Shown here in pieces: positions 3,261 through 38,444 of a stretch of DNA of 57,579 nt. The stretch is from a bacterium (GTDB taxonomy: Bacteria; Patescibacteriota; Minisyncoccia; Minisyncoccales; CG1-02-41-26). The stretch lies in the NCBI GenBank assembly GCA_030648255.1, contig JAUSHZ010000016.1, forward strand, positions 1 through 57,579, given 5' to 3'. How positions within the stretch are numbered: position 1 is the stretch's first letter; the number at the start of each line of letters is the position of its first letter. Position numbers and translations under genes: made by a program. Under the pieces are notes generated by a model. It did no database searches and was not told the DNA's origin. It saw only the letters and a list, made by a program, of their open reading frames with translations.

Positions 3261-6158
3261 CTACTTTATTAACTCCCTACTATTAACTACTAACTGCTTT
3301 AAGTATTTTCCTGTCCAGCTGGTTTTGTTTTGACTAATTTGCAAAGGCGTACCTTCTGCAACTATTTCACCGCCCCTATCTCCACTATCTGGACCCAAGT
3401 CAATAATCCAATCCGCTTGATTGGCTAAATCCATATTGTGCTCAATAATAATTACGGTATTACCCTTATCAACTAAAGCCCGCAAAACAAATAAAAGCTT
3501 ATTTATATCGTCTGGGTGCAAACCAGTTGTTGGCTCATCTAAAATATACAATGTTTTGCCAGTAGATTTTTTTGATAACTCTGTAGCTAATTTTATTCTC
3601 TGCGCCTCCCCTCCCGACAAAGAAGTGGCTGGTTGGCCAAGCTCAATGTAAGAAAGCCCCACCTCATTTAATGTTTGTAATTTTTGCGATAATAATGGGA
3701 TATTTTTAAAAAACTCCGAGGCCTCTTCCACTGTCATACTTAAGACGTCGGCGATTGATTTTCCCTTATAATCAATTTCCAATGTTTCCTTATTATATCT
3801 CTTGCCACGGCACTCTTGGCAGGCCACAAAAACATCGGGCAAAAAATACATTTCAATTTTTTTAACGCCCTGGCCTTCGCATGCCTCACATCTACCGCCC
3901 TTAACATTAAAGCTAAACCTGCCTAACTTAAAACCCCTAATTCTTGCTTCTTTGGTTTTGGCAAAAATGTCTCTGATATAATTAAAAGCTGAAGTATAAG
4001 TAGCTGGATTGCTTCTAGGGGTTCGACCAATTGGGGACTGATCAACCAAAACAACTTTGTCTAAAAATTCTGTGCCTAAAATAGTATCGTGCTTGCCAAC
4101 AATATCTTTTGATCTATAAAATTTTTGGTATAAGGCCTTAGCTAAAATATCATTAATTAAGCTGGATTTGCCAGAGCCAGAAACCCCAGTAACGCAAACA
4201 AACTTCCCTAAAGGAATCTTAGCATCAATATTTTTTAAATTATTCTCCCTCGCCCCCTTAATAATTAAAAACTTCTGTGTTATCTTTCTTAATTCCTGAT
4301 TCTTAATTCCTGATTCTTTAACAGAAATTTTCTTTCTGCCCGACAAGTATTCTCCTGTTAAAGTGTTTGACTTAAAAAGTTGCGCGGGTGTCCCTTCAAA
4401 AATAACTTTTCCTCCCCGCTTACCTGCCGAGGGCCCAATATCAATAATCCAATCAGCTTCTTTGACTGTTAAGGGGTCATGCTCAACCACTATCACAGAA
4501 TTACCAACATCTCTTAATTCTTTTAAAGTTGTAATTAGCTTGCTTTGATCTCTGGGATGAAGCCCCACTGAGGGCTCATCAAGAATATATAAAACTCCAG
4601 TTAGCTTAGAGCCAATTTGCGTGGCAAGCCTAGCTCTTTGCTCTTCCCCGCCCGACAATGTTTCAGTTTCCCTTGATAGGGTTAAGTATTCCAAACCAAC
4701 TGCAACTAAAAACCCTAAACGGCTAACAATCTCTTTAATTAAGGGCTGGGATATTTTTAAATTTTCTTCAGTAAAGCTTTTTGCAATGTTCTCAAAAAAC
4801 TTTTTAGCATCAACACACGGCATATCTGAAATATCAGCAATTGATTTATCGCTAATTTTTAGAGCCAAGGCCTCTTTGTTTAGCCTTTTGCCATGGCATT
4901 TTTCACAAACTCGAGAAACCATATAACGCTGAATTTCCTCTTTTGCCCAATCAGAGTCCGTTTCCCAATACCGCCTCTGCAAATTGCTAATCACACCTTC
5001 GTATCCTTCGGCTCCGTATAAAATTAAATCAATAATTTCTGGCTTTAAATTTTTAATTGGCTCATTAAGAGAAAATCTATACTCGTCAGCTAAATCCGAG
5101 AGTATGCTCCAGTAATATCCCTGCCTCCCGACTTTATGGCTGGCTCTGGCCCAAGGAAAAATCGCGCCTTCAGCAATTGAGAGGTTTTTATTGGGAATAA
5201 CTAAATCAGGAGAAACCTCTAATTTTCTGCCAAGACCTTGGCAGGTCTTGCAAGCGCCAAAGGGCGAGTTAAAAGAAAATAATCTTGGCTCAATTTCTGG
5301 CAAGGAGACCTCGCAATAATCGCAAGCAAAATGCTCGGAAAAAATTAAATCTTCTTCTTTTTGATTTTTGACTTTTGATTTTTGAATTATTATTGTGCCA
5401 TTGCCAAACCGCAAAGCAATTTCCAAAGAATCCACCAAACGGGACTTTTCTAAATCCTTATCTAAAACCAATCTATCAACCACAATTTCAATGCTGTGTT
5501 TTTTTTGCCTGTCTAAGTCCCTTTCTACTACTTCGTCCAGCCGTTGGATAACTCCGTCAATTCGCACTCTAACAAATCCCGCTTTTGATGCCTCCACTAA
5601 AACTGCTTTGTGTTCACCTTTTTTTGACTTAACTGCTGGGCCTAATATATTAATTTCGCTTGCCTTTGGCAGAGCCAAAATATGGCTGGTAATTTGATCA
5701 ATTGTTTGCTTCTTCACTTCCCGCCCGCAGTTTGGACAAAAAGGCGTGCCCACTCTGGCAAATAAGACCCTTAAATAATCGTAAATTTCTGTCATTGTGC
5801 CAACAGTTGACCTTGGGTTATGAGATGACTTTCTTTGATCTATTGAGATGGCAGGAGAGATGCCCTCTATTTTGTCGCAATCTGGTTTTTGCATCACACC
5901 CAAAAACTGCCGAGCGTAAGACGACAAGCTTTCCACATATCTTCTTTGGCCTTCAGCATATAAAGTATCAAAAGCCAAGCTGGATTTTCCAGAACCCGAC
6001 ACTCCAGTGATAACCACTAGTTTATTTTTTGGAATGTCTAAGTCAATATTTTTAAGATTATGAACCCTTGCTCCCCTGATACTTATAAAATTTTGCGGAT
6101 TTTTTATCGCCATAGAAATACGCATTATACCCCATTTTGAAACAAAATAAAAGTTCAA
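3261..6158 (-). CDS. uvrA: Excinuclease ABC subunit A (real start probably at the internal [23 protein letters not shown])
   Basis: Two ABC ATPase halves, zinc-binding CxxC motifs, [60 protein letters not shown]. Confidence 0.98.
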
Positions 6159-6190
6159 TATATTAAAAATATCGAACTTTTATGTAGTTA

Positions 6191-6616
6191 TTACTTTTTC
6201 TTATAGCTACAAACCATGTAGGTAGCTATAGAAAGAGCGCAAAAAATTAAGAAGAGCATTAGGGAGATAACTCCATATATCCCACCAGATACTGAATTTT
6301 TTAAACAAATTTGCCACCCTTCATTGATGGTCAAAACCCATCCAAATCCTTCTGCACAATTACTAATAGATGCAATGGTTGCCGACAAGATTGCTCCACT
6401 AATAATCGTTAACATAAAAATCGGCACTGAAAGCGAAATTAAGAACCTCTCGCTATTCTTTTTGGTCATTCTTTTTATATTTAAGATGGCTAGGACGCAA
6501 AATAGCACAACGCTTAAAAAGATAATAGAAATTCCTCCATACATCCCAATGTAAAACCTCCAATTAGAGGTAAAATAATACCCTAACACTAAAATAATTG
6601 CCCCTATATAAAACAT
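6191..6616 (-). CDS. Hypothetical multi-pass membrane protein
   Basis: Hydrophobic segments; complete ORF between genes. Confidence 0.6.
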   Translation of the reverse strand: MFYIGAIILVLGYYFTSNWRFYIGMYGGISIIFLSVVLFCVLAILNIKRMTKKNSERFLISLSVPIFMLTIISGAILSATIASISNCAEGFGWVLTINEGWQICLKNSVSGGIYGVISLMLFLIFCALSIATYMVCSYKKK

Positions 6617-6744
6617 TTAAAGTACCTCCTTCTCTATTCTTTTCTTGCTAAAAATAAATTCTATCAATCGAAACTTCAATACGCATTATACTACTCTTCT
6701 TGTCAAATTTTGCAATGCTGCAATATCTTGTTATGATATAGCCG

Positions 6745-7629
6745 ATGGAGAGATTTTTAAATAATTTTCCGATACAACAGATTGACTCAAAAAATCCTAG
6801 CTTTCCCAAGGCCTTAAAAAATCTAACAGGAATGCCAGAGGTTTTATATTATAGAGGCAATTATAAACTTTTAAATGAAAAATGCTTTGCCATTGTGGGA
6901 ACCAGAAGGCCTACTGATTATGGCAAATCAGTTGCCTTATCTTTTTCTAATGGCCTGGCCAAGTCGGGCTTAACAATTGTTTCAGGCCTGGCTTTGGGCA
7001 TTGATAGCTTGGCTCATCAGTGCGCTATTGATAAAAATGCTTTAACCATAGCGGTCTTGGGCTCGGGGCTTGATGAGCAATGCTTTTATCCAGCAGAAAA
7101 TTTAAAATTAGCCAAACAAATTTTAGAAAAAAATGGCTGTTTAATTTCCGAATATCCAGCAGGCACAAAAGGAGCTCTCTATACTTTCCCACAAAGAAAC
7201 CGTATAATAGCTGGGTTGTCTGTTGGAGTTTTAGTGGTTGAAGCCAAAATAAAATCCGGGGCTTTAATTACCGCCAATTATGCCAAGCAGTATAAAAAAC
7301 CAGTTTTTGCCATTCCAAACAGTATTTACTCTGAAATATCCAAAGGTTGCAATTTTTTAATAAAAAATGGGGCAAGGTTAGTTGAATCGCCAAATGAAAT
7401 CTTAGAAATGCTGGGCATAAATCAACCAGCAAAAACTCAAAGTTTATTTACTTCTCCACAAGAAAAAATAATAGCTGACATTTTACAAAACGGACCTTTA
7501 CATATTGATGCCATAATTGAAAAAACAAAAATGCCTTCGCAAACAATATCTGGAATTATCTGTATAATGGAATTGGAGAATAAAATTAAAAATTTAGGCG
7601 GAAATACTTATGCAATTAATTATCGTTGA
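6745..7629 (+). CDS. dprA: DNA-processing protein DprA (Smf)
   Basis: FAIVGTRRPTDYGKSVALSFSNGLAKSGLTIVSGLALGIDSLAHQCAI...FPQRNRIIAGLSVGVLVVEAKIKSGALITANYA. Confidence 0.97.
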   Translation: MERFLNNFPIQQIDSKNPSFPKALKNLTGMPEVLYYRGNYKLLNEKCFAIVGTRRPTDYGKSVALSFSNGLAKSGLTIVSGLALGIDSLAHQCAIDKNALTIAVLGSGLDEQCFYPAENLKLAKQILEKNGCLISEYPAGTKGALYTFPQRNRIIAGLSVGVLVVEAKIKSGALITANYAKQYKKPVFAIPNSIYSEISKGCNFLIKNGARLVESPNEILEMLGINQPAKTQSLFTSPQEKIIADILQNGPLHIDAIIEKTKMPSQTISGIICIMELENKIKNLGGNTYAINYR

Positions 7630-9670
7630 AAGTCCTACAAAGGCAAAAACAATTCAAAAATTCTTAGGAGGTGGCTACAGTGTTGTTTCCTCTTTTGGGC
7701 ATGTGCGAGATTTACCAAAAAGTGTTTTAGGCGTGGATGTGGAAAAAAATTTCCAGCCAAAATATATTGTGCCAGTTAAAGCCAAGCCAAAGGTAAAAAT
7801 AATAAAAGAAGAAACTAAAAAAGCTGATGGGGTTATCCTCGCCACTGACGAGGATCGAGAAGGCGAGGCAATTGCTTGGCATTTGGCTGAAGTTTTAAAA
7901 CTAGAAAACCCAAAAAGAATTGTTTTTCATGAGATAACAAAAAACGCCATAGAAGAAGCTTTAAAAAATCCGCGAGAAATTGATATGAATTTGGTAAATG
8001 CCCAACAATCAAGAAGGGTTTTGGATAGATTGGTTGGCTATAAGCTTTCTCCTTTTTTATGGAAAAAAATAATGCGGGGCTTATCGGCTGGCCGGGTGCA
8101 ATCAGTGGCTATGCGCTTAATTTGTGAAAGAGAAAGTGAAATTAAAAAATTTATACCAACTGAATATTGGAGCATCGTCGCTTCGCTCCTCAAATTAAAA
8201 ACTGAAAATGAAAAACTAAAAAATAATGGGCTACAAGCAAATTTAATTGCCAAAAACGGCAATAATATAGATAAGCTTGAAATAAAAAACAAAGCCCAAG
8301 CCGATGAAATTTTAAACGATTTAAATGGGGCAAAATATATTGTTGAAAGTATTGAAAAAAAAGAAACAATTAAAAACCCTCAAACTCCCTTTACTACAAG
8401 CACCCTTCAGCAGGCCTCTGTTAATAAGCTCGGTTTCTCAGCTAAAAGAGCGATGTCAATTGCCCAAAAACTTTACGAAAAAGGCCACATTACCTACCAC
8501 CGAACCGACTCTTTAAATTTATCAGAGCAAAGCCAAGCCCAAGCTAAACAATTTATAATTGACAGCTTTGGAAGCAACTATTGGCCTGGATTTAGCCGAG
8601 TTTTTAAAACAAAATCAAAGTCAGCTCAAGAAGCCCACGAGGCCATAAGGCCAACTAAATTAGAAAAAATAAATCTTATTGGTGATGAATTAAAACTCTA
8701 TACTTTAATCTGGCAGAGATTTGTGGCTAGCCAAATGGCTCAAGCTGTCTTTGATAGTTGCTCAATTGATATAATGGCCAATGTCTATACTTTTAGGGCA
8801 AATGGACAAACAATGAAATTTGATGGATTTTTAAAAGTATATCCAACAAAGTTTGAAGAAATGGAGTTGCCTAATCTCAAAAAAGGTGAGGAATTAGAAT
8901 TAAAAGAACTACTCTCGGGACAACATTTTACCCAGCCACCAGCCAGATATTCGGAAGCCACCTTAATAAAAGTTTTAGAAAAAGAAGGCATTGGCCGGCC
9001 ATCAACTTACGCCCCAACATTAGGAACAATCCAACAGAGGAACTACACCGAAAAAGATGAGAACAAAAAACTAAAACCAACCCAAATAGGAATTATGGTG
9101 GATACTATGCTTTTGGAAAACTTTCCTCAGATTGTAGATATTCAATTTACTGCTAAAATGGAGAAAGAGTTCGACGAAGTAGCAGAAGGCAAAGATACCT
9201 TCCAAAAAACTTTAAAAGATTTCTATATGCCATTTGAAAAAATTCTAAAAGAAAAAGAAAAAACAGTTGAAAAATTAGATCTCACAGAAAAAACCGACAA
9301 AATATGCCCAGAATGCAAAAACCCTATGGTTCTCCGCATGGGCAGATACGGAAAATTTTATGCTTGCAGCAAATTTCCAGAATGCAAGCACACAGACCCC
9401 CTACCAAGGCCAACTTTAAATATAGAATGCCCAAAATGCGGGCAAGGCCAAATAACCGAAAAAACAACAAAAACAAAAAAGATATTTTATGGTTGCTCTA
9501 ACTGGCCAAAGTGTGACTTTGCTTTGTGGGACAAACCAGTTAATCAATTCTGCCCGGACTGCCATTCAATAATGGTTGAAACAAAAAGCAAAATAGTAAA
9601 ATGCCCAAGTAAAACCTGCCCATCAATTATTAATGCAAAAGAAAATAAAAAACTTAAAAAGGAAACTTAA
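7610..9670 (+). CDS. topA: DNA topoisomerase I
   Basis: LIIVESPTKAKTIQKFLGGGYSVVSSFGHVRDLP...; C-terminal topo zinc fingers (CPECKNPMVLRMGRYGKFYACSKFPECKHT). Confidence 0.98.
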   Translation: MQLIIVESPTKAKTIQKFLGGGYSVVSSFGHVRDLPKSVLGVDVEKNFQPKYIVPVKAKPKVKIIKEETKKADGVILATDEDREGEAIAWHLAEVLKLENPKRIVFHEITKNAIEEALKNPREIDMNLVNAQQSRRVLDRLVGYKLSPFLWKKIMRGLSAGRVQSVAMRLICERESEIKKFIPTEYWSIVASLLKLKTENEKLKNNGLQANLIAKNGNNIDKLEIKNKAQADEILNDLNGAKYIVESIEKKETIKNPQTPFTTSTLQQASVNKLGFSAKRAMSIAQKLYEKGHITYHRTDSLNLSEQSQAQAKQFIIDSFGSNYWPGFSRVFKTKSKSAQEAHEAIRPTKLEKINLIGDELKLYTLIWQRFVASQMAQAVFDSCSIDIMANVYTFRANGQTMKFDGFLKVYPTKFEEMELPNLKKGEELELKELLSGQHFTQPPARYSEATLIKVLEKEGIGRPSTYAPTLGTIQQRNYTEKDENKKLKPTQIGIMVDTMLLENFPQIVDIQFTAKMEKEFDEVAEGKDTFQKTLKDFYMPFEKILKEKEKTVEKLDLTEKTDKICPECKNPMVLRMGRYGKFYACSKFPECKHTDPLPRPTLNIECPKCGQGQITEKTTKTKKIFYGCSNWPKCDFALWDKPVNQFCPDCHSIMVETKSKIVKCPSKTCPSIINAKENKKLKKET

Positions 9671-13738: not shown

Positions 13739-14483
13739 GTTCGTTTAAAAAGTCTTCTACTTTGGCAATGTCATCTGGGTTGCCAAAATCCAGCCAATAA
13801 TCCTGCAACATTTTTACCTTTACTTTGCCCTCTTTGGCCAATAAAGTAACTGCATCAGTTAATTCGTATTCTCCTCGGGGAGATATACACACTTGTGGTA
13901 ATTTTTCAAAAACTTCTGGCGTAAATTTATAAATCCCCTTATTAACTAAATTACCAACATATTCTTTAGGCTTTTCAATGATTTCTTTTAACTCTCCTTT
14001 TTCGTTTGTTATTAAAACTCCGTATTTTTCTGGGTGGTCGGTTGTGGAAGCGCCAATATAATTATAATCATCTTCCTCTCCCATTGCTTGTAAATCTCTA
14101 ACTGAAAATAAATTGTCCCCATAAATAGAAAGAAAGTTTTCATTGCCAACCCAATCCCTAACACATTTCATTGGGCATAAAGTGCCATATTCTTTTTCCT
14201 TTGGCCCCAAAATCTCAAACTGGTTGAGCAAGTCAATTTTTATATCTGCCTTGCCTTTTTGAGAGCAAAAATCCAAGTATTCCTTAACAAACCTTTCCAT
14301 TAGTTCAGCGTGAAAGCCAACCACCAGCATAAAATCTTTATAGCCAGCAGTAATTAAGTGGTCAAGCAAATAAGCTAAAAATGGCCTTTGCTTAACGCAA
14401 ATTAAAGACTTTGGCTTGTCTTTTGAGAGCTCTAACATCCTTGTGCCCTGCCCGGCAGCTGCAATTACAACTTTTTTTATCAT
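13722..14483 (-). CDS. NDP-sugar nucleotidyltransferase (glucose-1-phosphate uridylyl/thymidylyltransferase-like)
   Basis: VVIAAAGQGTRMLELSKDKPKSLICVKQRPFLAYLLDHLITAGYKDFMLVVGF. Confidence 0.88.
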   Translation of the reverse strand: MIKKVVIAAAGQGTRMLELSKDKPKSLICVKQRPFLAYLLDHLITAGYKDFMLVVGFHAELMERFVKEYLDFCSQKGKADIKIDLLNQFEILGPKEKEYGTLCPMKCVRDWVGNENFLSIYGDNLFSVRDLQAMGEEDDYNYIGASTTDHPEKYGVLITNEKGELKEIIEKPKEYVGNLVNKGIYKFTPEVFEKLPQVCISPRGEYELTDAVTLLAKEGKVKVKMLQDYWLDFGNPDDIAKVEDFLNEQKTCD

Positions 14484-16813
14484 ATTACAAAGTTTATTAA
14501 TTTATCTTTTACAAAAATAACTTTTTTAATTTCTTTATCTTTTATCCATTGGCTCATCTTTCCATCTTGTTTGGCAATTACCGAAACCTGTTCCCGATCT
14601 GCTCCTGCTTCAACTTCCACAACCCCCCTTGCTTTGCCATTAATTTGAACCACTATATTAACTTTTTCATCTTTTAACAAGGCGGCATCGTACTTTGGCC
14701 ATTGTTCTTCAAAAATTGAATTCCCCTCCCTCTTAATTCCTAATTCTTGATTCTTAATTCCGCTGTATAACTCCTCAGCGATGTGCGGAGCGAAAGGCGC
14801 TAAAAGCAATAAAAACTTTTCAAAAACATTTTGGGGAATTTCTTTTTCTTTTTCTATTTCATTAAGCAAAATCATTAAAGCAGAAATGGCTGTATTAAAC
14901 TTCATTGCCTCAATGTCTTCCCCTACTTTTTTAATCGTTTTATTTAATAATTTTTCTAATTTGGAATTTGGAATTTGTTTGTTTCTTGTTTCTTGTTTCT
15001 TGGAATTTAATCCGTAAACTCTATCCAAAAATTTTCTCGCCCCCTTAATACTGTTCGTATCCCACGCAATAGCTTGGTCAAAAGGCCCCATAAACATTTC
15101 GTAAATCCTTAAAGTATCAGCGCCATATTCTTTAACAATATCGTCAGGGTTTATAACATTACCCTTTGATTTGCTCATCTTTACTCCTCCTTGAGCCAAA
15201 ATTAAACCAACATTTCTCAGCTTTAAAAATGGCTCGTCAAAATCAATTAAGCCCTTTTTAAAGAGCGCTCTAGTAAAAAACCGAGCATACAAAAGATGCA
15301 AGACCGCATGCTCAGCTCCGCCCACATATAAATCAACTGGCAACCAATAATCAATTAGTTTTTTATCAGCAAATTCATTTTTATTTTTATGGTCAAGATA
15401 GCGAAAGAAATACCAAGACGAACAAACAAAAGTATCCGTGGTATCGCTTTCCCGCCTAGCTGGCCCGCCACATTGCGGGCATTTAACTTTATGAAATTCT
15501 TTTGATTTTACTAAAGGCGATTCTCCTGTTGGCACAAAATCAACATCTGTTGGCAATAATACTGGCAAGTCTTTTTCCGGTACAGGTTGCTCACCGCATT
15601 TTTCACAATAGATAATTGGAATGGGCGCCCCCCAATAGCGCTGCCGTGAAACCAGCCAATCTCGCATTTTATAATTTATTTTTTTCTTGGCTATGCCTTT
15701 TTCTGCCATTTCCATGGTGTTTGGCGCTTCAACAATTGGCAAATTAAATTTTTTCGCAAAGTCGTAATCTCGGTTATCTTGGGCAGGCACAGCCATAATA
15801 GCTCCAGTGCCATAACCAGACAAAACATAGTCAGCCACAAAAATTGGAATTTCTTTGTTATTGGCTGGATTTATCGCCACAATGCCTTCTAATTTTACGC
15901 CAGTTTTGTCTTTTACATCTGCTTGTCTATCACGTTCGCTTTTCTTCTTTGCCATCTCAACATAATCTTTCACTTCTTCATAATTCTTAATTCCTAATTC
16001 TTGATTCTTGAATATATCGTGCTCTGGCGCCACCACTAAATAAGTACACCCAAATATAGTATCTATCCTTGTTGTAAAAACCCTGATTCCTGATTCCTGA
16101 TTCCTGATTCTAAAATCTATCTCGTATCCCTCGCTCTTTCCAATCCAATTTTTCTGCATTATTTTAATTGGTTCTGGCCAATCAATTTTTTCTAAACCCT
16201 GCAATAATTCCTCATTAAAATCCGTGATTTTAAAAAACCATTGCTCCAGGTCTTTTTGTAAAACATCGCTAGAGCATCTTTCACATTTTCCATCTTGCGC
16301 TTGCTCGTTGGCTAAAACTGTCTGACAGGAATCGCACCAATTAACAGAGGCCTTTGCCTTATATGCCCAACCATTTTCGTAAAGAAAAAGAAAAAACCAC
16401 TGCGTCCATTTATAATATTCAGGGCTTGATGTATCAATTTCACGCGACCAATCATAAGAAAATCCCAAAGATTTAATTTGTTCTTTAAAGTGAGCTATGT
16501 TTTTATGCGTGCTTTCATTTGGGTGAACTTTGGTTTTAATAGCGTAATTTTCAGCTGGCAAGCCAAAAGCGTCCCAGCCAATTGGGTGGAGCACATTAAA
16601 ACCGTTCATTCTTTTGTAGCGAGAAATAATATCTGTGGCCGTATATCCCTTTGGGTGGCCCACATGAAGCCCAGCACCCGATGGATACGGGAACATATCC
16701 AAGCAATAAAATTTAGGCCTTTTATCAAAGTCCTGCGCTTTATTTAGTTCTTGCTTTTCCCAAAATTTCTGCCACTTGGGTTCAATTTTATCTGGTTCGT
16801 ATTTTTCTGCCAT
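14480..16813 (-). CDS. leuS: Leucyl-tRNA synthetase
   Basis: FYCLDMFPYPSGAGLHVGHPKGYTATDIISRYKRMNGFNVLHPIGWDAFGLPAENYAI; KMSKSKGNVINPDDIV. Confidence 0.98.
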   Translation of the reverse strand: MAEKYEPDKIEPKWQKFWEKQELNKAQDFDKRPKFYCLDMFPYPSGAGLHVGHPKGYTATDIISRYKRMNGFNVLHPIGWDAFGLPAENYAIKTKVHPNESTHKNIAHFKEQIKSLGFSYDWSREIDTSSPEYYKWTQWFFLFLYENGWAYKAKASVNWCDSCQTVLANEQAQDGKCERCSSDVLQKDLEQWFFKITDFNEELLQGLEKIDWPEPIKIMQKNWIGKSEGYEIDFRIRNQESGIRVFTTRIDTIFGCTYLVVAPEHDIFKNQELGIKNYEEVKDYVEMAKKKSERDRQADVKDKTGVKLEGIVAINPANNKEIPIFVADYVLSGYGTGAIMAVPAQDNRDYDFAKKFNLPIVEAPNTMEMAEKGIAKKKINYKMRDWLVSRQRYWGAPIPIIYCEKCGEQPVPEKDLPVLLPTDVDFVPTGESPLVKSKEFHKVKCPQCGGPARRESDTTDTFVCSSWYFFRYLDHKNKNEFADKKLIDYWLPVDLYVGGAEHAVLHLLYARFFTRALFKKGLIDFDEPFLKLRNVGLILAQGGVKMSKSKGNVINPDDIVKEYGADTLRIYEMFMGPFDQAIAWDTNSIKGARKFLDRVYGLNSKKQETRNKQIPNSKLEKLLNKTIKKVGEDIEAMKFNTAISALMILLNEIEKEKEIPQNVFEKFLLLLAPFAPHIAEELYSGIKNQELGIKREGNSIFEEQWPKYDAALLKDEKVNIVVQINGKARGVVEVEAGADREQVSVIAKQDGKMSQWIKDKEIKKVIFVKDKLINFVI

Positions 16814-16838: not shown

Positions 16839-17681
16839 CTAACTTAAATTAAAGAGTTTCTTGGCATTTTGGGTGGTTATTTCAGCAATTTTTTCTAATG
16901 GCTCGCCACGAATTTCCGCAATTTTTTGAGCAATGTATTTAATATTTATGGGTTCGTTGCGGTCTTGTTGGCCACCTTCGCCCTGTGGGCTACAGCGTGC
17001 CGAAGACGGGCAAAGAAACGGGCAATCAGTTTCTAAAAGCATTTTTTCAAGAGGCATTTTTTTGATTGTTTCATCAACATCAAATTTAAATATAATTCCA
17101 TTAAAACCCAAATAAAATCCAAGCTCCATATATCTTTGCGCCTCCTCCCAACTTCCTGTAAAGCAATGCACCACCCCCCTCTCCCCTTTTCCTAATTCAT
17201 AATTCATAACTCTTAATTCCTCCAGTAGCTCTCTATGCGCTTTTCGGCAATGTAAAATTACGGGCAAGTTCAATTCTTTTGCCAGCTCTAATTGTTTTAA
17301 AAAAACTTCTTTTTGTTTTTCTTTAAAAACTTCTGCTTTTACTTTTCCTTTTGGCTCGTTCCAATAATCCAAACCAATTTCTCCTATAGCTACCACCCCT
17401 TTTTCTTTTGATAGTCCTCTGTATTTCTCAATATCAAGTTCCTCCAACCGATCCTCATCAAGTTGACTTAAATCAACAACACAGTTAATTGGGTGCAACC
17501 CGATAGAAGCAAAAACACCAGCTGGGTATTGCTGGGCTATTTCCACTGCCAATTGCGAGGTTTTATAATTAGAGCTAGCATTTATTATCCAAACATCTTG
17601 TTCTAAGCTTTTCTTTATAACTTCATCTCTATCCTCGTCAAACGCTTTAAAATTTAAATGACTGTGAGTATCGATTAGCAT
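16839..17681 (-). CDS. tatD: TatD-family metal-dependent deoxyribonuclease
   Basis: MLIDTHSHLNFKAFDEDRDEVI...AIGEIGLDYWNE...LLETDCPFL. Confidence 0.95.
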   Translation of the reverse strand: MLIDTHSHLNFKAFDEDRDEVIKKSLEQDVWIINASSNYKTSQLAVEIAQQYPAGVFASIGLHPINCVVDLSQLDEDRLEELDIEKYRGLSKEKGVVAIGEIGLDYWNEPKGKVKAEVFKEKQKEVFLKQLELAKELNLPVILHCRKAHRELLEELRVMNYELGKGERGVVHCFTGSWEEAQRYMELGFYLGFNGIIFKFDVDETIKKMPLEKMLLETDCPFLCPSSARCSPQGEGGQQDRNEPINIKYIAQKIAEIRGEPLEKIAEITTQNAKKLFNLS

Positions 17682-17682
17682 A

Positions 17683-19236
17683 TTAATTCAAGCGAGGAAA
17701 TAATGGCTCGCTTTTGTTGGTTTTTATTTGCTCCAGAATTTTATCTGCGGTTTGGGGCATAAACGGCTTGAGCATTTCAGCGATTTCCCCCAAAACTACT
17801 AATAAATCTTTAATAACTTTTTCATTTTTAGTTTTTAGTTTTTCATTTGCTAACTCCCATGGTTTTTCAGTATCAATTATTTTATCGCAAGCCCCAATCA
17901 GCTCCCAAATAGCTCCCAAAGCTTCGTCGATTTTTAAATTTTCCAAAGCCAAGCTAAAGTTATACTTATTTTTTGCTTCTAAAATATTTTGTTCTAATCT
18001 TGAACCCTTAACTTTTAACTTTGCGCTCCCGCCAGCAACGCTTTGCGTAGCGATGCGGACTGGTTGCACTTTTAACTTAGTTGCAAGAGTAACCACTCTT
18101 GCAACAAGATTCCCCAACCCGCTGGCTAAATCACTATTATATTTTTCATCTAAACGGCTAAGGGAAACGTCCCCGTCGTTGCCGCCAAATGGAAACTGGG
18201 TTAAAAGCAAATATCTGGTGGCGTCTGTTCCGTATTTTTTAATTAAATCGTTCGGGTCAACTATATTACCAATGGTTTTGGACATTTTTTGTCCGTCAAT
18301 TGTAAAATACCCGTGGCAAAAAGCTTGCTTTGGCAATTGATCAATAGCGTCGTCACCATAATAAGCCAATAAAATTGCTGGCCACATAATACAATGAAAC
18401 TTCAAAATTTCTCGGCCCATTAAATGCAAATCCACTGGCCAAAATTCCATCTTGCCCAAATTTTGCAAGACAGTCCAATAATTAAGCAGGGCATCTATCC
18501 ACACGTAAACTGTTTGGCTTTCTTCCCATGGCAACTTAATGCCCCAAGAAACACTTTTCCGAGAAATTGAAACATCATCTAACCCCTGCTTAATAACACC
18601 CAAAACTTCACTCTTAGCTTTTTCGGGAAGTATTAGTAGTTTATCGCTCTCAATAAGCTCTTTAATTTTTGGCAACAATTGCCTTAACTTAAAAAACCAG
18701 TTTTCTTCAGCCACATCTTGGGGTTCACATTTGTGGTCTGGGCACTTGCCATCAACTAAATCTTTGTCAGTTACAAATTTTTCACAGCCCACGCAATACT
18801 TGCCAGCGTACTCGCCCTCGTATAAATAGCCATTACTTTTTAAAACATTTAAAAACTCAGCTACTTTTTCTTCGTGGCTTTTATCAGTTGTTCTGATAAA
18901 ATATGAGTAGTCAATATTTAAATTTTGCCAAGCTGTTTTAAATAAACCCGAAATTTCATCACAAAATTCCTGCGGAGTTTTGCCTGCTTTTTGAGCTGCT
19001 TCGGCAATTTTAGCGCCGTGCTCATCTGTGCCCGTTAAAAAGAAAACCTCTTTGCCCAGAATTCTGTAATATCGAGTTAAAACATCAATTGCCAAAGTAG
19101 TATAAGCGTGCCCAATATGGGGTTTGGAATTTACATAATAAATCGGCGTGGTTAAATAGATTTTATTGTCTTTTTCTGCCATAGATTTGATTAAATTTAC
19201 TTTATCACACTTCTCCCCAAATTTTAATCTTGACAA
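17683..19236 (-). CDS. metG: Methionyl-tRNA synthetase (real start probably MAEKDNKIYLTTPIYYVNSKPHIGHAYTT)
   Basis: TPIYYVNSKPHIGHAYTTLAIDVLTRYYRILGKEVFFLTGTDEHGAKI; KMSKTIGNIVDPNDLI. Confidence 0.97.
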   Translation of the reverse strand: MSRLKFGEKCDKVNLIKSMAEKDNKIYLTTPIYYVNSKPHIGHAYTTLAIDVLTRYYRILGKEVFFLTGTDEHGAKIAEAAQKAGKTPQEFCDEISGLFKTAWQNLNIDYSYFIRTTDKSHEEKVAEFLNVLKSNGYLYEGEYAGKYCVGCEKFVTDKDLVDGKCPDHKCEPQDVAEENWFFKLRQLLPKIKELIESDKLLILPEKAKSEVLGVIKQGLDDVSISRKSVSWGIKLPWEESQTVYVWIDALLNYWTVLQNLGKMEFWPVDLHLMGREILKFHCIMWPAILLAYYGDDAIDQLPKQAFCHGYFTIDGQKMSKTIGNIVDPNDLIKKYGTDATRYLLLTQFPFGGNDGDVSLSRLDEKYNSDLASGLGNLVARVVTLATKLKVQPVRIATQSVAGGSAKLKVKGSRLEQNILEAKNKYNFSLALENLKIDEALGAIWELIGACDKIIDTEKPWELANEKLKTKNEKVIKDLLVVLGEIAEMLKPFMPQTADKILEQIKTNKSEPLFPRLN

Positions 19237-22739: not shown

Positions 22740-22844
22740 AACAACAAAATTTTTAATTCTTAATTTTTAAATAATTTTTAATTTTAAAATTTCTAAACTT
22801 ATTTCATCTTAATACAAATAACCACAACATAAAAGAAAGGGCGG

Positions 22845-28127: not shown

Positions 28128-28847
28128 TTAACCTTTTTCTGCTAAAAAATCAAAATATACCTTAAAGGCCTTGTTTAAATTTTGTAAATCATTTTCCCAA
28201 ATGCTTAGCCGTTCAACTTTTTCAATCGGCTCTTTTATAAAAAACCTTATAAGCTTTACCGAGTCAACCATAATTTCAGTGGCGGGAAAATTGCAACACC
28301 TCCAGCAAACCACTCCTCCGTGAAGGGGAGATAAAAAAAATGTTTCTGGTAAAAGCTTGCTTGAACAGATTGGGCAAGAATAAAGCTCGGGAGAATAGCC
28401 AAGTAAAGTAAAAAAATTCCATAAAAAATAGTGAGAAATCAGTTTATAGTTATTAGTTAATAGTTTATAGTTGAACTTCTGGAAAATTACCAGCAACAAT
28501 CGCCAAATTTCCTCGTCTTTTCTTTCTGTGATAGTTAAGCAGTCAGCAACTTCGGCTATTTGACCAACGCAAGCAAGCGCTTCTGAGTTTTTTCTTATTT
28601 CCAAAAATTTGTCAATTACAATTGCATCCGTTAATGTTTTGCGGTTTTTGCCCTGAATAAATTCAACTTCAATAAAATAAAAAACATCAATGCCCGCTTT
28701 TAATTTTGATGTTATCTTGCGAATTGCCTTGCCAACCAATTCTATTTTGCCAAAATATTGAGTGTATAAAGCAAAAATCTGGTCTGCCTCCCCAGAATCT
28801 TTTTTAGATAAAACAATCCCTTTTGTCCTGTAATGCTGATGCGCCAT
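28128..28847 (-). CDS. recO: DNA repair protein RecO
   Basis: YRTKGIVLSKKDSGEADQIFALYTQYFGKIELVGKAIRK; CPICSSKLLPE...CWRC zinc-binding motif. Confidence 0.92.
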   Translation of the reverse strand: MAHQHYRTKGIVLSKKDSGEADQIFALYTQYFGKIELVGKAIRKITSKLKAGIDVFYFIEVEFIQGKNRKTLTDAIVIDKFLEIRKNSEALACVGQIAEVADCLTITERKDEEIWRLLLVIFQKFNYKLLTNNYKLISHYFLWNFFTLLGYSPELYSCPICSSKLLPETFFLSPLHGGVVCWRCCNFPATEIMVDSVKLIRFFIKEPIEKVERLSIWENDLQNLNKAFKVYFDFLAEKG

Positions 28848-29303: not shown

Positions 29304-32270
29304 TTAGAGGTCTGACCTCTGCAAACCTAGCCAAACTACCTCCCCGTCTATTTTAAATTCTGACCGGGCTAAAAATTCTCCACTTTTTGAGGTGTTTTCC
29401 CTTAGCTCTTTTGAGCGAGTGCTTTCTAAAATTTGTTTTTGATTTTCTTTTAAAATCTTAACTATTTTTTCAGGAGCAAAATAACTAATCGCCACATCTG
29501 TATCATTTGGAGTTAAGTTTGACTGCTTGCGCAAGCTTTGAATATTTCTGATAATTTCACGAACTTGGCCCTCTATTCTTAGTTCCTCTGAAATTTCTGT
29601 GTCCAGCTCAACCTCACTGGCAATGCTGTCATCAAAAATAACTTCTTTAACATTAACTTCGTCTTTTATCAACTCTAAAAACTCCTCCTTCCCCTTTATT
29701 CTTAATTCATGATTCCTAATCCTTAATTCTTGTAGCGCCTGCCTAACACCAATGCTAAGCTCTGCCCTTTTAGCCAATGCCAAAGAAACAACATCTCTTG
29801 TCTCTTGCATTTCTTTTTCCAGGCTCTCATCAATAAATTTCTTTTCTGATTTTGGCCAATCACATAAATGTACGGACTCTGGCATATCTTTACCTTTTAA
29901 CTGCTGATATATCTCTTCAGCTAAAAACGGCATTGTTGGGGCAATTAGCTTACAAACAGTTAATAAAACTTCATAAAAAATTTGTTCTCCCTGTTTTTTA
30001 TCATCTAAACTTTCAGAATTTTGAAATCTTTTACGTGAACGCCTCACATACCAAAGCGACAAATCGTTTATCCAGAAATCCTCAATAGCCAAAACCGCTT
30101 TTGAAGGGTCGAGTTTCTCCAAGCTCTCGGTTGCTTCGTTTATTAAATTATTTAATTTACTCAAAATCCATTTGTCTAAAATATTTTTTGGCTTCAATTC
30201 TTTAGCTTGAGGGTTTTGGCAATAAGTTTTGAAAAATGTAAAACAATTTTGAAAGATTAAAATCTTTCTTTCCGTTTCCTTGGCCACATTATAGCCAAAT
30301 CGCATATTGCTAGCTGGGTTCTGGATAGCATACATCCATCGCATCACATCAGCCCCGATTTTTTCTACTGCCTCGTCAAACCAAATAGCATTGCCTTTAG
30401 ATTTATGCATTTCCTCTCCCTTTTCATCAACAACCGAAGCAAACCCAAGCAAATTTTTAAATGGCTCTTTATTTTCTAAAACTTGACTCATTACCAATAA
30501 AACATAAAACCAATTTTTAAACTGCCCTGGAAAGCTTTCGCACACTAAATCAATTGGAAACCACTTATCCCATTCTGATTTGTTGTTATGAAAATAAGGG
30601 ATATTTTCATGCCTATTATCATCACTAATGGTTGAAAACGGCACAATGCCAGCATCTAGCCAAGGATTGCCAACATCTAAAATTCTAGAAACAACCTCGT
30701 TGCACTTGGAACATCTTATTTTAATGTTATCAACCCAAGGCCTATGAGGCGAATTGCCCTCAAAATCTTTCCAGCCTTCTACCGCTCTTTCTTTTAGCTC
30801 ATCAATAGATCCAATAACATCAAAATTTTTACATTCAGAACATTCATAGATCGGCAAAGCCAAGCCCCAGTATCTTTTTTTAGAAATCAACCAATCGCGC
30901 ATATTTTTCAGCCAATCAAGCTCTCTTTCCAAGCAAAATCCTGGTATCCAGTTTATTTTTCTAGCAATACTCATTAAAGGCGCTCTTAAATAATCCATTG
31001 ATATATACCACTCGTCAACCAAGCGAAAAATCAGTTCGCTTTTACACCTCCAACAAGTTGGATATCTATGTTTATAGTCCTCTATTTTATAAACTAAATT
31101 ATTGGCTTTTAGCCTTTCAAAAATAAGTTCACGCACAAACTCTTCGCCCACAAAATGCCCTGTTAAAGCATCAAAACCCTCAACATAACGGCTTTCATCG
31201 TTAGTGGGGTTTATGACTGGCAGATACAAAAGCTTAGCGAGTGTAAAATCTTCTTGCCCGCATCCGGGAGCAGAATGCACAACACCCGTGCCCTCATCAG
31301 CTGTGACATCTTTCCACAAAACAACTTTGTGATGAAGTTCTGGCACTTTAGCTACAGCTGGCAAGTTATCAAAAAGCCCAGTGTACTCTCTATTTTCCAA
31401 AGCCTTGCCTTCAAATGTTTCAATAATTTGGCCGTTTTCAATTAGATGAGCTTTATCTTTTAATAGAATATAGATCTCGCCAGTTTTTTGGTCCGCCACC
31501 TTAGCATAAATAAAGTGCGGGTTAACTGATAAAAAAACGTTCGCTGGCAGTGTCCAAGGAGTAGTTGTCCAAGCTAAAAAATAGGTTTCGTTTTCACCAA
31601 CAACAGGCAACTTGAAATAAATGGCTTTGTGGGTTATTTCTTTGTATTCCTCGGTTAAAATTTCGTGCTGGCTTATGGCCGTGCCGCATCTCGGGCACCA
31701 AGCCACAACGTCGTGGCCTTTATACAAAAGCCCTTTTTCGTGGCATTTTTTCAAAAAGTGCCAGATGGCGTAATTATTTTCCGGAGACATTGTGTAATAT
31801 GAATGGCTTTTTTTCATCCACTCACCTTTTTCATCAAAGTCTGTTTGCCAATTTCCCCAATCCCGCAACATACCTAATCTTATGGATTGCTGGGTTTGAA
31901 TTTTTGAATATTTATGCACCCGCTCCTTGCACTTATTTACAAATTCAGCAATGCCATATTTTTCAATATCTTTTTTATTTTTAAAACCAAGCTCTTTTTC
32001 CACTTCCACCTCCACCCAAAGCCCTTGGCAGTCAAAACCATTTTGAAACCGCTCGCTATATCCTTGCATTGCCTTAAACCTTTGAAATAAATCTTTGTAA
32101 GTTCTGCCCCAAGCATGATGAACGCCCATAGGGTTGTTGGCTGTAATTGGCCCATCCAAAAAACTCCAAGGCTTTCCCTTTTTATTTTTTTCTTTAATCT
32201 TCTCCAAAAGCTTTATCTCCTCCCAAAACTTTAATGTCTCTTTTTCTTTTTTTACAAAATCACTTTCCAT
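29304..32270 (-). CDS. ileS: Isoleucyl-tRNA synthetase
   Basis: FLDGPITANNPMGVHHAWGRTYKDLFQRFKAMQGY; KSKGNAIWFDEAVEKIGADVMRWM. Confidence 0.97.
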   Translation of the reverse strand: MESDFVKKEKETLKFWEEIKLLEKIKEKNKKGKPWSFLDGPITANNPMGVHHAWGRTYKDLFQRFKAMQGYSERFQNGFDCQGLWVEVEVEKELGFKNKKDIEKYGIAEFVNKCKERVHKYSKIQTQQSIRLGMLRDWGNWQTDFDEKGEWMKKSHSYYTMSPENNYAIWHFLKKCHEKGLLYKGHDVVAWCPRCGTAISQHEILTEEYKEITHKAIYFKLPVVGENETYFLAWTTTPWTLPANVFLSVNPHFIYAKVADQKTGEIYILLKDKAHLIENGQIIETFEGKALENREYTGLFDNLPAVAKVPELHHKVVLWKDVTADEGTGVVHSAPGCGQEDFTLAKLLYLPVINPTNDESRYVEGFDALTGHFVGEEFVRELIFERLKANNLVYKIEDYKHRYPTCWRCKSELIFRLVDEWYISMDYLRAPLMSIARKINWIPGFCLERELDWLKNMRDWLISKKRYWGLALPIYECSECKNFDVIGSIDELKERAVEGWKDFEGNSPHRPWVDNIKIRCSKCNEVVSRILDVGNPWLDAGIVPFSTISDDNRHENIPYFHNNKSEWDKWFPIDLVCESFPGQFKNWFYVLLVMSQVLENKEPFKNLLGFASVVDEKGEEMHKSKGNAIWFDEAVEKIGADVMRWMYAIQNPASNMRFGYNVAKETERKILIFQNCFTFFKTYCQNPQAKELKPKNILDKWILSKLNNLINEATESLEKLDPSKAVLAIEDFWINDLSLWYVRRSRKRFQNSESLDDKKQGEQIFYEVLLTVCKLIAPTMPFLAEEIYQQLKGKDMPESVHLCDWPKSEKKFIDESLEKEMQETRDVVSLALAKRAELSIGVRQALQELRIRNHELRIKGKEEFLELIKDEVNVKEVIFDDSIASEVELDTEISEELRIEGQVREIIRNIQSLRKQSNLTPNDTDVAISYFAPEKIVKILKENQKQILESTRSKELRENTSKSGEFLARSEFKIDGEVVWLGLQRSDL

Positions 32271-33192: not shown

Positions 33193-33197
33193 TTTTT

Positions 33198-33563: not shown

Positions 33564-33592
33564 ATTTTTAAAAGCTTAATTTCATTGTATGG

Positions 33593-33614
33593 TTTTACAA
33601 TGATCATTGTAAAA
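33593..33614. promoter_or_regulatory. 22-bp perfect palindrome TTTTACAATGATCATTGTAAAA (operator candidate)
   Basis: Perfect dyad about 30 bp upstream of the 33198-33563 start codon; a separate terminator (GCCCTccattgcAGGGC-TTTT, - strand) lies just upstream. Confidence 0.5.
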
Positions 33615-33669
33615 TAATAAAAGCCCTGCAATGGAGGGCAATTAAATTTTTCAATTCAAAAAGATTAAA

Positions 33670-34104: not shown

Positions 34105-34108
34105 AATA

Positions 34109-34342: not shown

Positions 34343-34376
34343 AAATTTTTTAAAAACTTACTACAGTTTAATAATA

Positions 34377-36074
34377 CTACATTTTATTTGGGGATTCAAT
34401 GCCTAAAAGAGTTAAGCTATTTTTTATTACTTGCCCAACAGCAAATGTTAAAGCCAAACGGAATTCTTTCTGCTCTTTTGTATCAGCTTTTAAAATTGAA
34501 ACTTCGTTGTAAAAAAGATTAAAGCTTTGCGATAAATCAAAAATATAGTTGCAAATTAGGTTTGGTGAAAAAGTTTTAGTTGCCTGTTCCACAATTTCGC
34601 TAAAATGCAGAAGCTTTTTTAAAATTATATTTTCCTGTGGTAATGCTTTTGTGACGATCGTTATAAAGTTGTTATCAAGGATTTTGAAAATTTTATTTGG
34701 CGATAATCCCGATTTTTCTAAAACGCTTTGGGTGCGGGCATAAGCATATTGCAAATATGGCCCAGAATTACCTTTTAAGTTTAAAATTTTGTCCCAATCA
34801 AAAACAATATCGCGCGAATGATGCTGGGATAAGTCATTGTATTTAACCGCCCCAATGCCAATTTGTTGGGCTAATTCATTTTTTTCTTTTTCTGGCAAAT
34901 TTTTATCTGTTTCTGAGTTATTAATAATTTCTTTAGCTTTATCTATGGCCTCTTGCAAAACATCCTCTAAATGAACTGTATCGCCCCTTCTTGTTGAAAA
35001 CTTTCCGGTTTTTGAGCGCATTAACCCGTGAACAATATGCTCAAACCGGACGTCTTTGGCCCAGCCAAGCATTTTAATAGTTTCAAATAATTGTTTAAAG
35101 TGCAGCGATTGGTCCACCCCAACCTCATAAGCAATAATGCTTGGATTCCATTTTTTTAATCTGTATTTTATAGTGGCCAAATCCCGCAAGAAATAAGTGG
35201 TTGCTCCATCGGACTTTATTAATACTAAGCTTGGCAAAATATTGTTTTCAAACTCTACCACCCAAGCACCTTCGCTTTGTTTGGTTAAGTTTTTCTTTTT
35301 CATTTCCTCAAAAATTTCTGGCATTTTATCAAGGTAAAAACTTTCACCCAAAGTATTATCAATTTTTATACCAAGTAAATTATAAATTCTATCAAACTCT
35401 TTTAAAGAAATTTCTTTGCAGGCGTGCCAAATTTCTTTGGCTTTCTTATCGCCATTTTCTAATTTTTTAAACCAAGCCCTTGCCTCATCATTGAGCGCTG
35501 GATCTGTTTCCGCTTCTTTGTGAAACTCCACATATAATTTTTCTAAATCGCCTATCGTGAGCTCATTAATTTTTAATTTTTCATTTTTAATTTTTAATTC
35601 AATTTGGAAAATTAATTTTCCAAATTGCGTGCCCCAATCCCCCAAATGATTATCGCCAATGGTTTTATAACCAGAAAACTTATACAAATTATAAATAGCT
35701 TGGCCAATAATGGTTGAACGCAAATGGCCAATGCCAAAGGGTTTGGCAATGTTTGGAGCTGAATAGTCAATGACAATAGTTTTACCTTTGCCAATTTGTG
35801 ATGAGCCGTATTTTTCTTTTTGCTTTAAAATCTGTTTTAAATTTTCTAAAAAATACTCTGGCCTTAAAAAGAAGTTTATAAACCCGTTAACAACCTCTAC
35901 TTTTTCAAACAAAGGACTTGTTTTTAATTTATCAGCAATCTCTTGCGGATTTAACTTTTCTTTGATAGCTATATTGGTTGAAAAATCCCCATAACTAAAA
36001 TTATCTGGCACTTCCACCACCGCCTTTTTGCCAATTGTCTTTTCAATTAAATTTTTAATTTCTTGCTTGAGCAT
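34377..36074 (-). CDS. argS: Arginyl-tRNA synthetase
   Basis: IDYSAPNIAKPFGIGHLRSTIIGQAIYNLYKFSGYKTIGDNHLGDWGTQFGKL. Confidence 0.97.
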   Translation of the reverse strand: MLKQEIKNLIEKTIGKKAVVEVPDNFSYGDFSTNIAIKEKLNPQEIADKLKTSPLFEKVEVVNGFINFFLRPEYFLENLKQILKQKEKYGSSQIGKGKTIVIDYSAPNIAKPFGIGHLRSTIIGQAIYNLYKFSGYKTIGDNHLGDWGTQFGKLIFQIELKIKNEKLKINELTIGDLEKLYVEFHKEAETDPALNDEARAWFKKLENGDKKAKEIWHACKEISLKEFDRIYNLLGIKIDNTLGESFYLDKMPEIFEEMKKKNLTKQSEGAWVVEFENNILPSLVLIKSDGATTYFLRDLATIKYRLKKWNPSIIAYEVGVDQSLHFKQLFETIKMLGWAKDVRFEHIVHGLMRSKTGKFSTRRGDTVHLEDVLQEAIDKAKEIINNSETDKNLPEKEKNELAQQIGIGAVKYNDLSQHHSRDIVFDWDKILNLKGNSGPYLQYAYARTQSVLEKSGLSPNKIFKILDNNFITIVTKALPQENIILKKLLHFSEIVEQATKTFSPNLICNYIFDLSQSFNLFYNEVSILKADTKEQKEFRLALTFAVGQVIKNSLTLLGIESPNKM

Positions 36075-36112
36075 ATTCTTTATATTATCGTATTTTCTGC
36101 TAAAATCAAAGA

Positions 36113-36565: not shown

Positions 36566-36614
36566 AAATGCCTCATCTTTAGCGTTTTATTTGTTAAATT
36601 AAAACATTAAAGAT

Positions 36615-36983
36615 GGGGATGACAGCTTTGACAATTACGGCTTATTTAATAAGCAAGCCGAGCTCCAAAATCTCGCAAAACTTTTGGAAAACCATAAGTG
36701 CAACATACACCTATGAACAACCAGTTTACGCAGTAGCGTAGACCTGCCCGGCTTTTAAGCCGTGGCCATCTCGCCTGTTGATTTCTAATAAACAGGATGG
36801 GGTGACAAATTATTAGGATTGGCAAATAGCCCTCCCAAACTATCTGCTGAAAAATTTGGGATCGAGGCTTAAAATTTTTGTTATTTTTATATTTTAAACT
36901 TTCAAACTTTTAAAATAACTAAGCTTGTAGTATTGTTAAGTAAATCGTTTTTGGACGAGAGTTCAATCTCTCCATCTCCACCA
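36615..36983 (+). ncRNA. ssrA: tmRNA
   Basis: GGGGATGaC...CATCTCCACCA acceptor-type ends, TTCAATCTC T-arm, directly follows smpB; internal tag ORF GCA ACA TAC ACC TAT GAA CAA CCA GTT TAC GCA GTA GCG TAG (ATYTYEQPVYAVA*) at 36700-36741. Confidence 0.92.
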
Positions 36984-37003
36984 GCCTTCGCTAAAGTTTC
37001 GGC

Positions 37004-37540: not shown

Positions 37541-37574
37541 TTCTAATCTACGAATGGCTAAACTAATGCTACAA

Positions 37575-37652
37575 ATAAATTAGTAGCATTAAATTAGTAG
37601 CATTAGTGCCTTAATTAGTAGCATTCGCATTAATTAGTAGCATTCGCATTAA
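37575..37652. repeat. Short tandem repeats (TTAGTAGCATT core, at least 4 copies) between infC and rpmI
   Basis: aaattagtagcattaaattagtagcattagtgccttaattagtagcattcgcattaattagtagcattcgcattaatatt. Confidence 0.85.
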
Positions 37653-37662
37653 TATTATATTT

Positions 37663-37854
37663 ATGAAAACTAGAAAGGCCTTAATGAAAAGGTTTAAAAT
37701 TACAAAAAACGGAAAGGTTTTAAGAAAGGTTGGCGGGCAGAACCACTACCGAGCCAAAAAAACCGGCAAACAAATTCGCCAGAAGCGAAATTGGATTGCG
37801 TTGCACCCTTCAATTATTAAAAGAATAAAGAAGGCCGGTCTTAAATTAAGATAA
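37663..37854 (+). CDS. rpmI: 50S ribosomal protein L35
   Basis: MKTRKALMKRFKITKNGKVLRKVGGQNHYRAKKTGKQIRQKR. Confidence 0.95.
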   Translation: MKTRKALMKRFKITKNGKVLRKVGGQNHYRAKKTGKQIRQKRNWIALHPSIIKRIKKAGLKLR

Positions 37855-38035
37855 ATGACGCCCCGCGAAAACGAGCCGATAGGCGAAGTTCAAGTGGGTG
37901 GCGGAATTTACCCCGTGGAGTAGTTTTAAATTTTTTGCTAAAAATTTAAAACAGAAATTTGCAAAGCAAATTTCTACTCCACAGGGTGTAAGTACTCGTA
38001 AAATTCGCCGCAAATTTTACGAATAAAATTAAGCG
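37855..38035 (+). repeat. MITE-like multi-hairpin element, copy 1
   Basis: atgacgccccgcgaaaacgagccgataggcgaag...ggcggaatttaccccgtggagtag...ctactccacagggtgtaa; homologous to 48200-48411 (inverted). Confidence 0.75.
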
Positions 38036-38055
38036 GCTAATTAACGATTACTAAC

Positions 38056-38403
38056 ATGGTAAGAGTAAAAAGAGGAACAATTGCCCATAAGCGCAGGAAG
38101 CATTTGTTGGAAAATACAAAGGGTTTTAAATGGGGCAGAAAATCAAAATTCGCCCAAGCCAAACAAGCCATGCAAAAGGCCTGGACTTATGCCTATCGGG
38201 ACAGAAAGAAAAACAAATCCAACAGACGGGCTTTGTGGCAAATAAATATTAATGCAGCTGTTCGGCATTTTGGCCTTTCATATAGCAGGTTTATCGACGG
38301 ACTGAAGAAAAACAAAATTGAACTTGATAGAAAGGTATTAGCCGAATTGGCCAAAGACCAACCCGAAATTTTTGAAAAAATTGTTGAGAAAGCTAAAGGA
38401 TAA
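38056..38403 (+). CDS. rplT: 50S ribosomal protein L20
   Basis: MVRVKRGTIAHKRRKHLLENTKGFKWGRKSKFAQAKQAMQKAWTYAYRDRKKNK. Confidence 0.97.
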   Translation: MVRVKRGTIAHKRRKHLLENTKGFKWGRKSKFAQAKQAMQKAWTYAYRDRKKNKSNRRALWQININAAVRHFGLSYSRFIDGLKKNKIELDRKVLAELAKDQPEIFEKIVEKAKG

Positions 38404-38444
38404 GAGTTAAGGATCAGGAGTTAAGAATTAAGTTTTAAAAATTG

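Follow-up and report, generated by a model that had tools for sequence, protein, structure and literature searches.

How can short arrays of 7-nucleotide (nt) units lie inside the open reading frames of housekeeping genes, when a change of 7 nt shifts the frame, and by what process do they arise? This question is raised by a 57,579-nt stretch of DNA (contig JAUSHZ010000016.1 of assembly GCA_030648255.1, analysed whole and called the window here), in which such arrays occur within uvrA, topA, leuS, tatD, metG, recO, ileS, and argS, gene identities that NCBIfam confirmed. The window is contig C13 of a patescibacterial genome of 846,593 bases in 33 contigs (G000), which we compared with a genome of the same genus (G287; 841,177 bases); both genomes were rebuilt from sequence stretches. 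The arrays are tandem copies at the DNA level, and recurrent copying of DNA in 7-nt steps combined with purifying selection is probably the best model for them.

In coding sequence, we counted segments in which 17 or more of 21 positions matched at a given lag. Lag 7 gave 36 such segments in G000, compared to a mean of 0.74 after codon shuffling (maximum of 5 in 100) and a mean of 4.0 after synonymous shuffling that preserved the proteins. The coding sequence of the window by itself contained 10 segments, compared to 0.06 when codon-shuffled (maximum of 2 in 300); a preliminary description of this DNA had proposed comparison with a codon-preserving null, and the enrichment was present both genome-wide and in the window. 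Across lags 2–30, period 7 and its multiple 14 were clearly dominant: lag 14 gave 20 segments in G000 coding sequence, lag 6 gave 14, lag 9 gave 5, and lags 5, 8, 10, 11, and 13 gave 0–2 each. This dominance held against codon, synonymous, and Markov nulls, and direct tandem 7-nt units exceed chance, as they do in heptanucleotide simple sequence repeats (SSRs) or short tandemly repeated repetitive (STRR) sequences. At 18 of 21 matches, 73 lag-7 segments were found in G287 vs 40 in G000, so that G287 is the richer in arrays; it also had smaller excesses at lags 9 and 18.

Units occupy all three reading frames, as the preliminary description had claimed, with TAA and TAG avoided only in one of them. 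The last three bases of RAATYAN were TAA or TAG in 0 of 41 coding units in which YAN was read in frame; in coding units with YAN out of frame the count was 34 of 101, and between genes it was 48 of 65. The stop-bearing unit is thus purged only where it is read in frame, which explains the mixture of GAATTAR and GAATCAR, and the frame is open through every coding array. Among units whose Y falls on the synonymous third position of an isoleucine codon, ATC was present in 9 of 23 in G000 and 18 of 29 in G287, a count made with a detection rule blind to the Y base after array detection had possibly biased a first count; outside arrays, the ATC share of ATY codons was 13.8% and 11.7%, respectively. 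The raised ATC within arrays indicates that they follow the repeat unit rather than codon usage or a requirement for particular amino acids.

Arrays are dispersed genome-wide and are denser between genes, again as in heptanucleotide SSRs and STRR sequences, with an intergenic density 4.3 times that in genes in both genomes. Those lying in genes numbered 28 of 42 in G000 and 49 of 79 in G287 and included arrays in core aminoacyl-tRNA synthetase and repair genes. Across 287 genomes of the phylum, the family of three GAATYAN units was found patchily in 90 genomes (~1,400 matches, hand-summed and overlapping), compared to 21 genomes and 31 matches for a period-8 version of the motif. A scan for four RAATYAR units returned, among the matches listed, Bacteroidota, Cyanobacteria, Verrucomicrobia, Ignavibacteria, Spirochaetes, Acidobacteria, Planctomycetes, and Patescibacteria. 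After exclusion of the selecting arrays, period 7 remained dominant at these loci (83 segments; the next, at lag 14, had 26), and array lengths were mostly 25–35 nt. Heptad arrays are therefore not peculiar to this genome or to cyanobacteria, since many phyla carry them.

Comparison of relatives showed that sites persist while their occupants change. Among orthologues of G000 and G287 defined by reciprocal best hits, 57 sites carried an array, 14 in both genomes, 12 in G000 only, and 31 in G287 only. At the 14 common sites, lag-7 self-similarity within arrays was 0.80 and 0.82, and agreement between the two species was 0.66, below the genome level of 0.75. At equal length, ligA has GAATCAG in G000 and AAAATCA in G287, a murB-like gene GAATTAR and ATATCAA, and a gatA-like gene AAAGTGC and AAGCTTC (the latter two labels being our reading of the alignments). 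Loops in uvrA, ileS, and ligA hold differing families across further relatives, as does leuS 16082–16110. One ligA loop is filled in G000, G287, and G294 and empty in G299, G308, G303, and G324; in the ligA tree, the empty-loop genomes branch between the filled ones (one fork has only 84% support), which implies two or more gains of the array or repeated losses. Because arrays are missing at the corresponding site in relatives, they are not ancestral linkers, and the sister-taxon alignment that had been suggested as a check revealed loops that were empty or held other heptad families. Relative to empty orthologues, indels ranged from 3 to 17 residues, ruling out a simple model of 21-nt insertion. 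The description of the arrays as inserted fits some sites, such as leuS 14731–14761, but several others replace a loop at equal length.

Arrays of every family cluster at ~30–34 nt (four to five units), in coding and intergenic sequence alike. Perfect arrays peak at 30–33 nt (31–32 nt in G287), above the shortest detectable length, and the same mode was seen in samples of two well-assembled genomes of the phylum with 36% and 51% GC.

These observations can be accommodated if a 7-nt unit is copied stepwise onto itself until it reaches about four to five units. Copying would recur with indifference to genes or frame, and purifying selection would retain the copies that leave the gene open, so that coding arrays would be expected in variable loops and free of stops. 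At an occupied site, the unit sequence could later turn over by unit-to-unit copying or replacement, often with length kept. The copying itself may be slippage-type synthesis during replication or repair. The preliminary description had offered two options, and local tandem copying under purifying selection is the one that we support, with a propagation mechanism kept as a rival. Several points weigh against the stepwise-copying model. Simple slippage predicts that short arrays should be commonest, in conflict with the length peak of perfect arrays; ordinary slippage does not give equal-length turnover, which, because a 7-nt change shifts the frame, needs copying without net change or replacement of the whole array; the model leaves the period of 7 unexplained; and it does not predict the excess of facing array pairs (34:5) or a core shared at a few loci.

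A first rival, which we consider unlikely, treats arrays as small mobile or templated elements that spread by copying between loci and then decay. Parallels would be Rickettsia palindromic elements and miniature inverted-repeat transposable elements (MITEs). A few families do occur at many loci, in numbers that differ between the sister genomes: AAAAATC makes up 18 of 79 arrays in G287 vs 1 of 42 in G000, and AATCAGG accounts for 7 and 5 arrays. A composite of an array followed by ACCACAAGTAAAAATYAAAAA was found five times, four of them in G000 and the fifth in G287; two of these loci are coding, and three copies (two in G000, one in G287) extend to ...TGAGCGAA. Composite loci include L307 974–1002, L308 1501–1529, and L306 1501–1529, with G000 contigs C3 and C18 represented, and some carry a second, inverted array; none of 22 further genomes of the family had the composite. 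Rickettsia palindromic elements and MITEs form a single sequence family with a common core or flanks at many loci; here one core is shared, by five loci only. Facing pairs, too, look like inverted-repeat elements. Propagation in trans is nevertheless hard to reconcile with flanks that are mostly unrelated (of 861 and 3,081 pairs, a handful share 14 of 20 bases), with many units confined to one site, and with orthologous sites that hold different families.

Facing pairs speak for a second rival, in which 3′ ends at breaks or gaps grow by 7 nt at a time over ~30 nt before being joined, so that extension of one end leaves a single array and extension of both ends leaves a facing pair with independent units. 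We paired neighbouring arrays within 80 nt and called them facing when the purine-rich strand pointed inward. Pairs were facing in 34 cases vs 5 back-to-back (p = 2e-6), a ratio that applies to a set consisting partly of loci chosen for carrying an array, and the excess persisted between co-directional genes (14:2). In 12 of the 34 facing pairs, the two units have at most four of seven bases in common; selection for hairpins as the sole cause is ruled out, as arms are often unrelated. A check for inverted repeats found that single arrays are direct repeats and that some arrays form facing pairs, a portion of which are complementary. Arms are slightly more alike than random (5.06 vs 4.50 of 7), which counts against independent repair scars, although hairpin selection would also give that result. 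An example of alike arms, CATGAAA/CTTGAAA in G287, can fold into a ladder in which each unit contributes a 6-bp stem and one mismatch (z = −5.35); each arm is near-homogeneous and the arms differ at the same unit position, which points to copying within arrays. Repair scars would also account for a length mode that does not depend on unit sequence and for loops that are often replaced and not merely extended. On the other side, this account is purely inferential, with no break, enzyme, or intermediate seen; Ku was absent in all six genomes tested, which rules out Ku as the cause and excludes classical end joining; and we looked for polarity in unit changes along arrays and saw no consistent signal. 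There is only a slim chance that breaks or gaps are the source, and it is similarly improbable that the arrays are scars of a widespread bacterial DNA synthesis that extends 3′ ends over ~30 nt in sequence-independent 7-nt steps and leaves single arrays or facing pairs of unrelated units, with in-frame scars kept in genes.

Selection for binding sites, by a protein whose contacts with DNA or RNA are spaced 7 nt apart and that favours about four units, is very doubtful. It would fit the single length mode in and between genes and the tendency of intergenic arrays to share orientation with flanking genes (25:9, p = 0.009), and MacGregor notes that CspB, a cold-shock protein, can bind repeated heptamers, each taken by one protein molecule (PMC4679880). 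However, unit sequences are almost arbitrary, sites within genes lack conservation between sister species, and arrays in coding sequence occupy variable loops and not positions common to genes. It is scarcely credible that the arrays reflect low-complexity linkers at the protein level, AT-richness by chance, or an artefact of assembly. Arrays do occupy variable loops, but the periodicity is lost in protein-preserving shuffles (36 vs 4.0 segments), synonymous sites track the unit, and the same arrays are present in intergenic sequence, in other phyla, and in more than one independent assembly.

MutS, DinB, and a reverse transcriptase were also considered as causes. MutS was absent in 12 of 12 phylum genomes tested, including six without GAATYA array matches; of 14 control genomes, 11 have it. 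The lack of mismatch repair may be permissive, but it does not separate array-rich from array-free genomes, and we rejected it as the cause. DinB was rejected because it is absent in five of six array-rich genomes, and a reverse transcriptase because it is absent in array-rich G287. A reverse transcriptase gene does lie in the window at 55684–56712 on the minus strand (RVT_1, E 8e-25); between 50000 and 57579, direct repeats of at least 40 nt were absent and no template/variable repeat pair was seen.

The phenomenon is of a known kind, namely heptanucleotide SSRs or STRR sequences, and is not specific to G000. It resembles them in having 7-nt direct units that are dispersed, belong to many families, are denser between genes, and occur in unrelated phyla. 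Heptanucleotides are reported to be the most abundant long SSR class in most bacterial genomes, and the length contacted by polymerase has been suggested as the reason for 7 nt (Mrazek et al., 2007, as reported in PMC4679880); other cases mentioned there and in PMC4692102 are Calothrix and Helicobacter, and Beggiatoaceae have TAACTGA repeats (PMC4679880). Published arrays are rare in coding sequence (7–11% in Xanthomonas), unlike those described here, which also lie in core genes and avoid stops according to codon phase. G-rich heptads of Xanthomonas and Nostoc (GGGNATC/GGGGAYT) prefer four units, which their authors relate to quadruplex formation, and those of Xanthomonas form convergent pairs on opposite strands (PMC4692102). 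Our arrays share the preference for about four units and the convergent pairs; a G-tract in each unit was not found in the unit lists of G000 and G287, and quadruplex formation therefore cannot explain the preference here. Like Borg repeats, the arrays are A-rich, fast evolving, and genic in roughly half of cases, but all Borg units in genes have lengths divisible by three (PMC9879509), unlike 7.

What is new is the in-frame presence in housekeeping genes, the phase-specific avoidance of stops, the copying at synonymous sites, the turnover of unit families at fixed loops, the four-unit preference without G-tracts, and the facing pairs with unrelated units. In an incomplete coverage of the literature, we found no description of heptad arrays in Patescibacteria or of in-frame heptads in housekeeping genes.

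Rickettsia palindromic elements are small repeats that sit in frame within protein genes, likewise in a reduced genome. They are palindromes with a common family sequence, unlike the present arrays, which are direct repeats that share only their period. Palindromic inserts resembling them also occur in these genomes, separate from the heptad arrays. Short in-frame examples lie in similar loops of metG (VQPVRIATQSVAGGSAKLKV, window about 18,000–18,130), of G287 leuS (L058; SVTKLADRHSLLQ, TGTAACAAAGTTAGCCGATCGGCACAGTTTGTTACA), and of G308 ileS (L151). The palindromic core GCCGATCGGC has 19 copies in G287 and 5 in G000. Other short dispersed repeats are CCGAGCTTCAACAG (~32 places in G000; GTTGAAGCTCGG has 41 copies there and is absent from G287) and those grouped around ACCCCGTGAAGTAA / TTAACGATTTCTAA (~20 places each in G000, and in G287 too). 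Arrays of GTTTAGAGTTTAGAT(A/G)TTAGAATTTAGAATTTA lie in G287 at C1 46516, C1 134365, and C2 62925, and at two of these three places the near-identical flank TTTGAATTTTGACATT is promoter-like (TTGACA).

Arrays in the window were located by Tandem Repeats Finder (TRF) and direct reading of the sequence (Table 1). Period-7 or period-14 arrays lie at nearly all places named in the preliminary description, the signal being weak at uvrA 3266–3296 and intergenic 22748–22795, and unit families vary between sites around the common period, as it had stated.

Table 1. Heptad arrays of the window and the corresponding sites in relatives.
Gene or region	Position	Strand	Units (encoded residues)	Basis	Relatives
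uvrA, 3′ end	3266..3296	-	degenerate AGTTARK; weak, below threshold	sequence	
uvrA	4286..4318	-	two-unit alternation GAATCAGGAATTAA, period 14/7	TRF period 14, 100%	
uvrA	5358..5385	-	TCAAAAA/TCAAAAG	TRF + sequence	ATTATCA units in G308; loop short in G304, G324
topA	8192..8222	+	AAATGAA/AAACTAA	TRF period 14, 88%	
leuS	14731..14761	-	GAATTAA/GAATCAA	TRF + alignment	insertion, missing from T. thermophilus LeuRS; GATTCAA x4 in G287
leuS	14958..15002	-	facing pair, unrelated CAAGAAA x3.4 and CCAAATT x2.9, 1 nt between	TRF + sequence	
leuS	15977..16011	-	GAATYAR (FKNQELGIKNYE)	sequence + alignment	conserved loop replaced at equal length (ELKSQILNL-like in relatives)
leuS	16082..16110	-	GAATCAG x4.1 (RIRNQESGIR)	sequence + alignment	GAATCAG in G000, GATTCAA in G288, TTTTCAA in G305
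tatD	17189..17219	-	GAATTAT/GAGTTAT	TRF period 7	
metG	17818..17843	-	AAAACTA/AAAATGA (EKLKTKNEK)	sequence + alignment	AAAATCA in G287, position and length equal
intergenic	22748..22790	-	AT-rich, with phase break; weak	TRF	
recO	28441..28472	-	AACTATA/AACTATT (NYKLLTNNYKL)	TRF + sequence	array absent in G287
ileS	29693..29729	-	GAATTAA/GAATCAT (ELRIRNHELRI)	TRF + alignment	AAATCCG/AAATTCG in G287, length equal
argS	35566..35599	-	AAAATTA/AAAATGA (ELKIKNEKLKIN)	TRF + sequence	AAACTCA in G287
intergenic	38396..38436	+	degenerate AGTTAAG/GATCAGG	TRF + sequence	

Array-bearing loops are probably surface-exposed. A poor AlphaFold model of LeuS built from nine sequences (mean predicted local distance difference test score 58.5) hints that the leuS arrays might lie in loops between helices or in the turn of a beta-hairpin, the last array being at a helix end. 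LeuS itself (window 14480–16813, minus strand) has ~40 residues fewer than T. thermophilus LeuRS at two places (chain 360–405 and 593–637) and possibly lacks the leucine-specific insertion. Elsewhere in the window are two other tandem repeats. One, at 19809–19869, has units of 26 bp that include the palindrome GGGGGACAGTCCCCC; the other, at 37576–37653, is a 14/19-bp repeat of TTAATTAGTAGCAT and lies ~600 bp downstream of the transfer-messenger RNA gene (36615–36983). On the minus strand, 48367–52038 encodes DNA gyrase subunit A with an internal intein splicing domain, and 42456–47615 encodes a 1,719-residue protein with a CARDB domain and a C-terminal T4SS_pilin match.

Predicted proteins contain low-complexity 'linkers', NQESGIRNQE among them, that are by-products of this process in the DNA, a caution for anyone annotating Patescibacteria, predicting their protein structures, or building their phylogenies. 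The arrays show that about four units are favoured even in sequence unable to form quadruplexes, and that the units at a given site change together. Arrays in conserved genes are a natural record of this process: empty sites can be aligned, codon phase provides an internal control for selection, and synonymous positions serve as neutral reporters.

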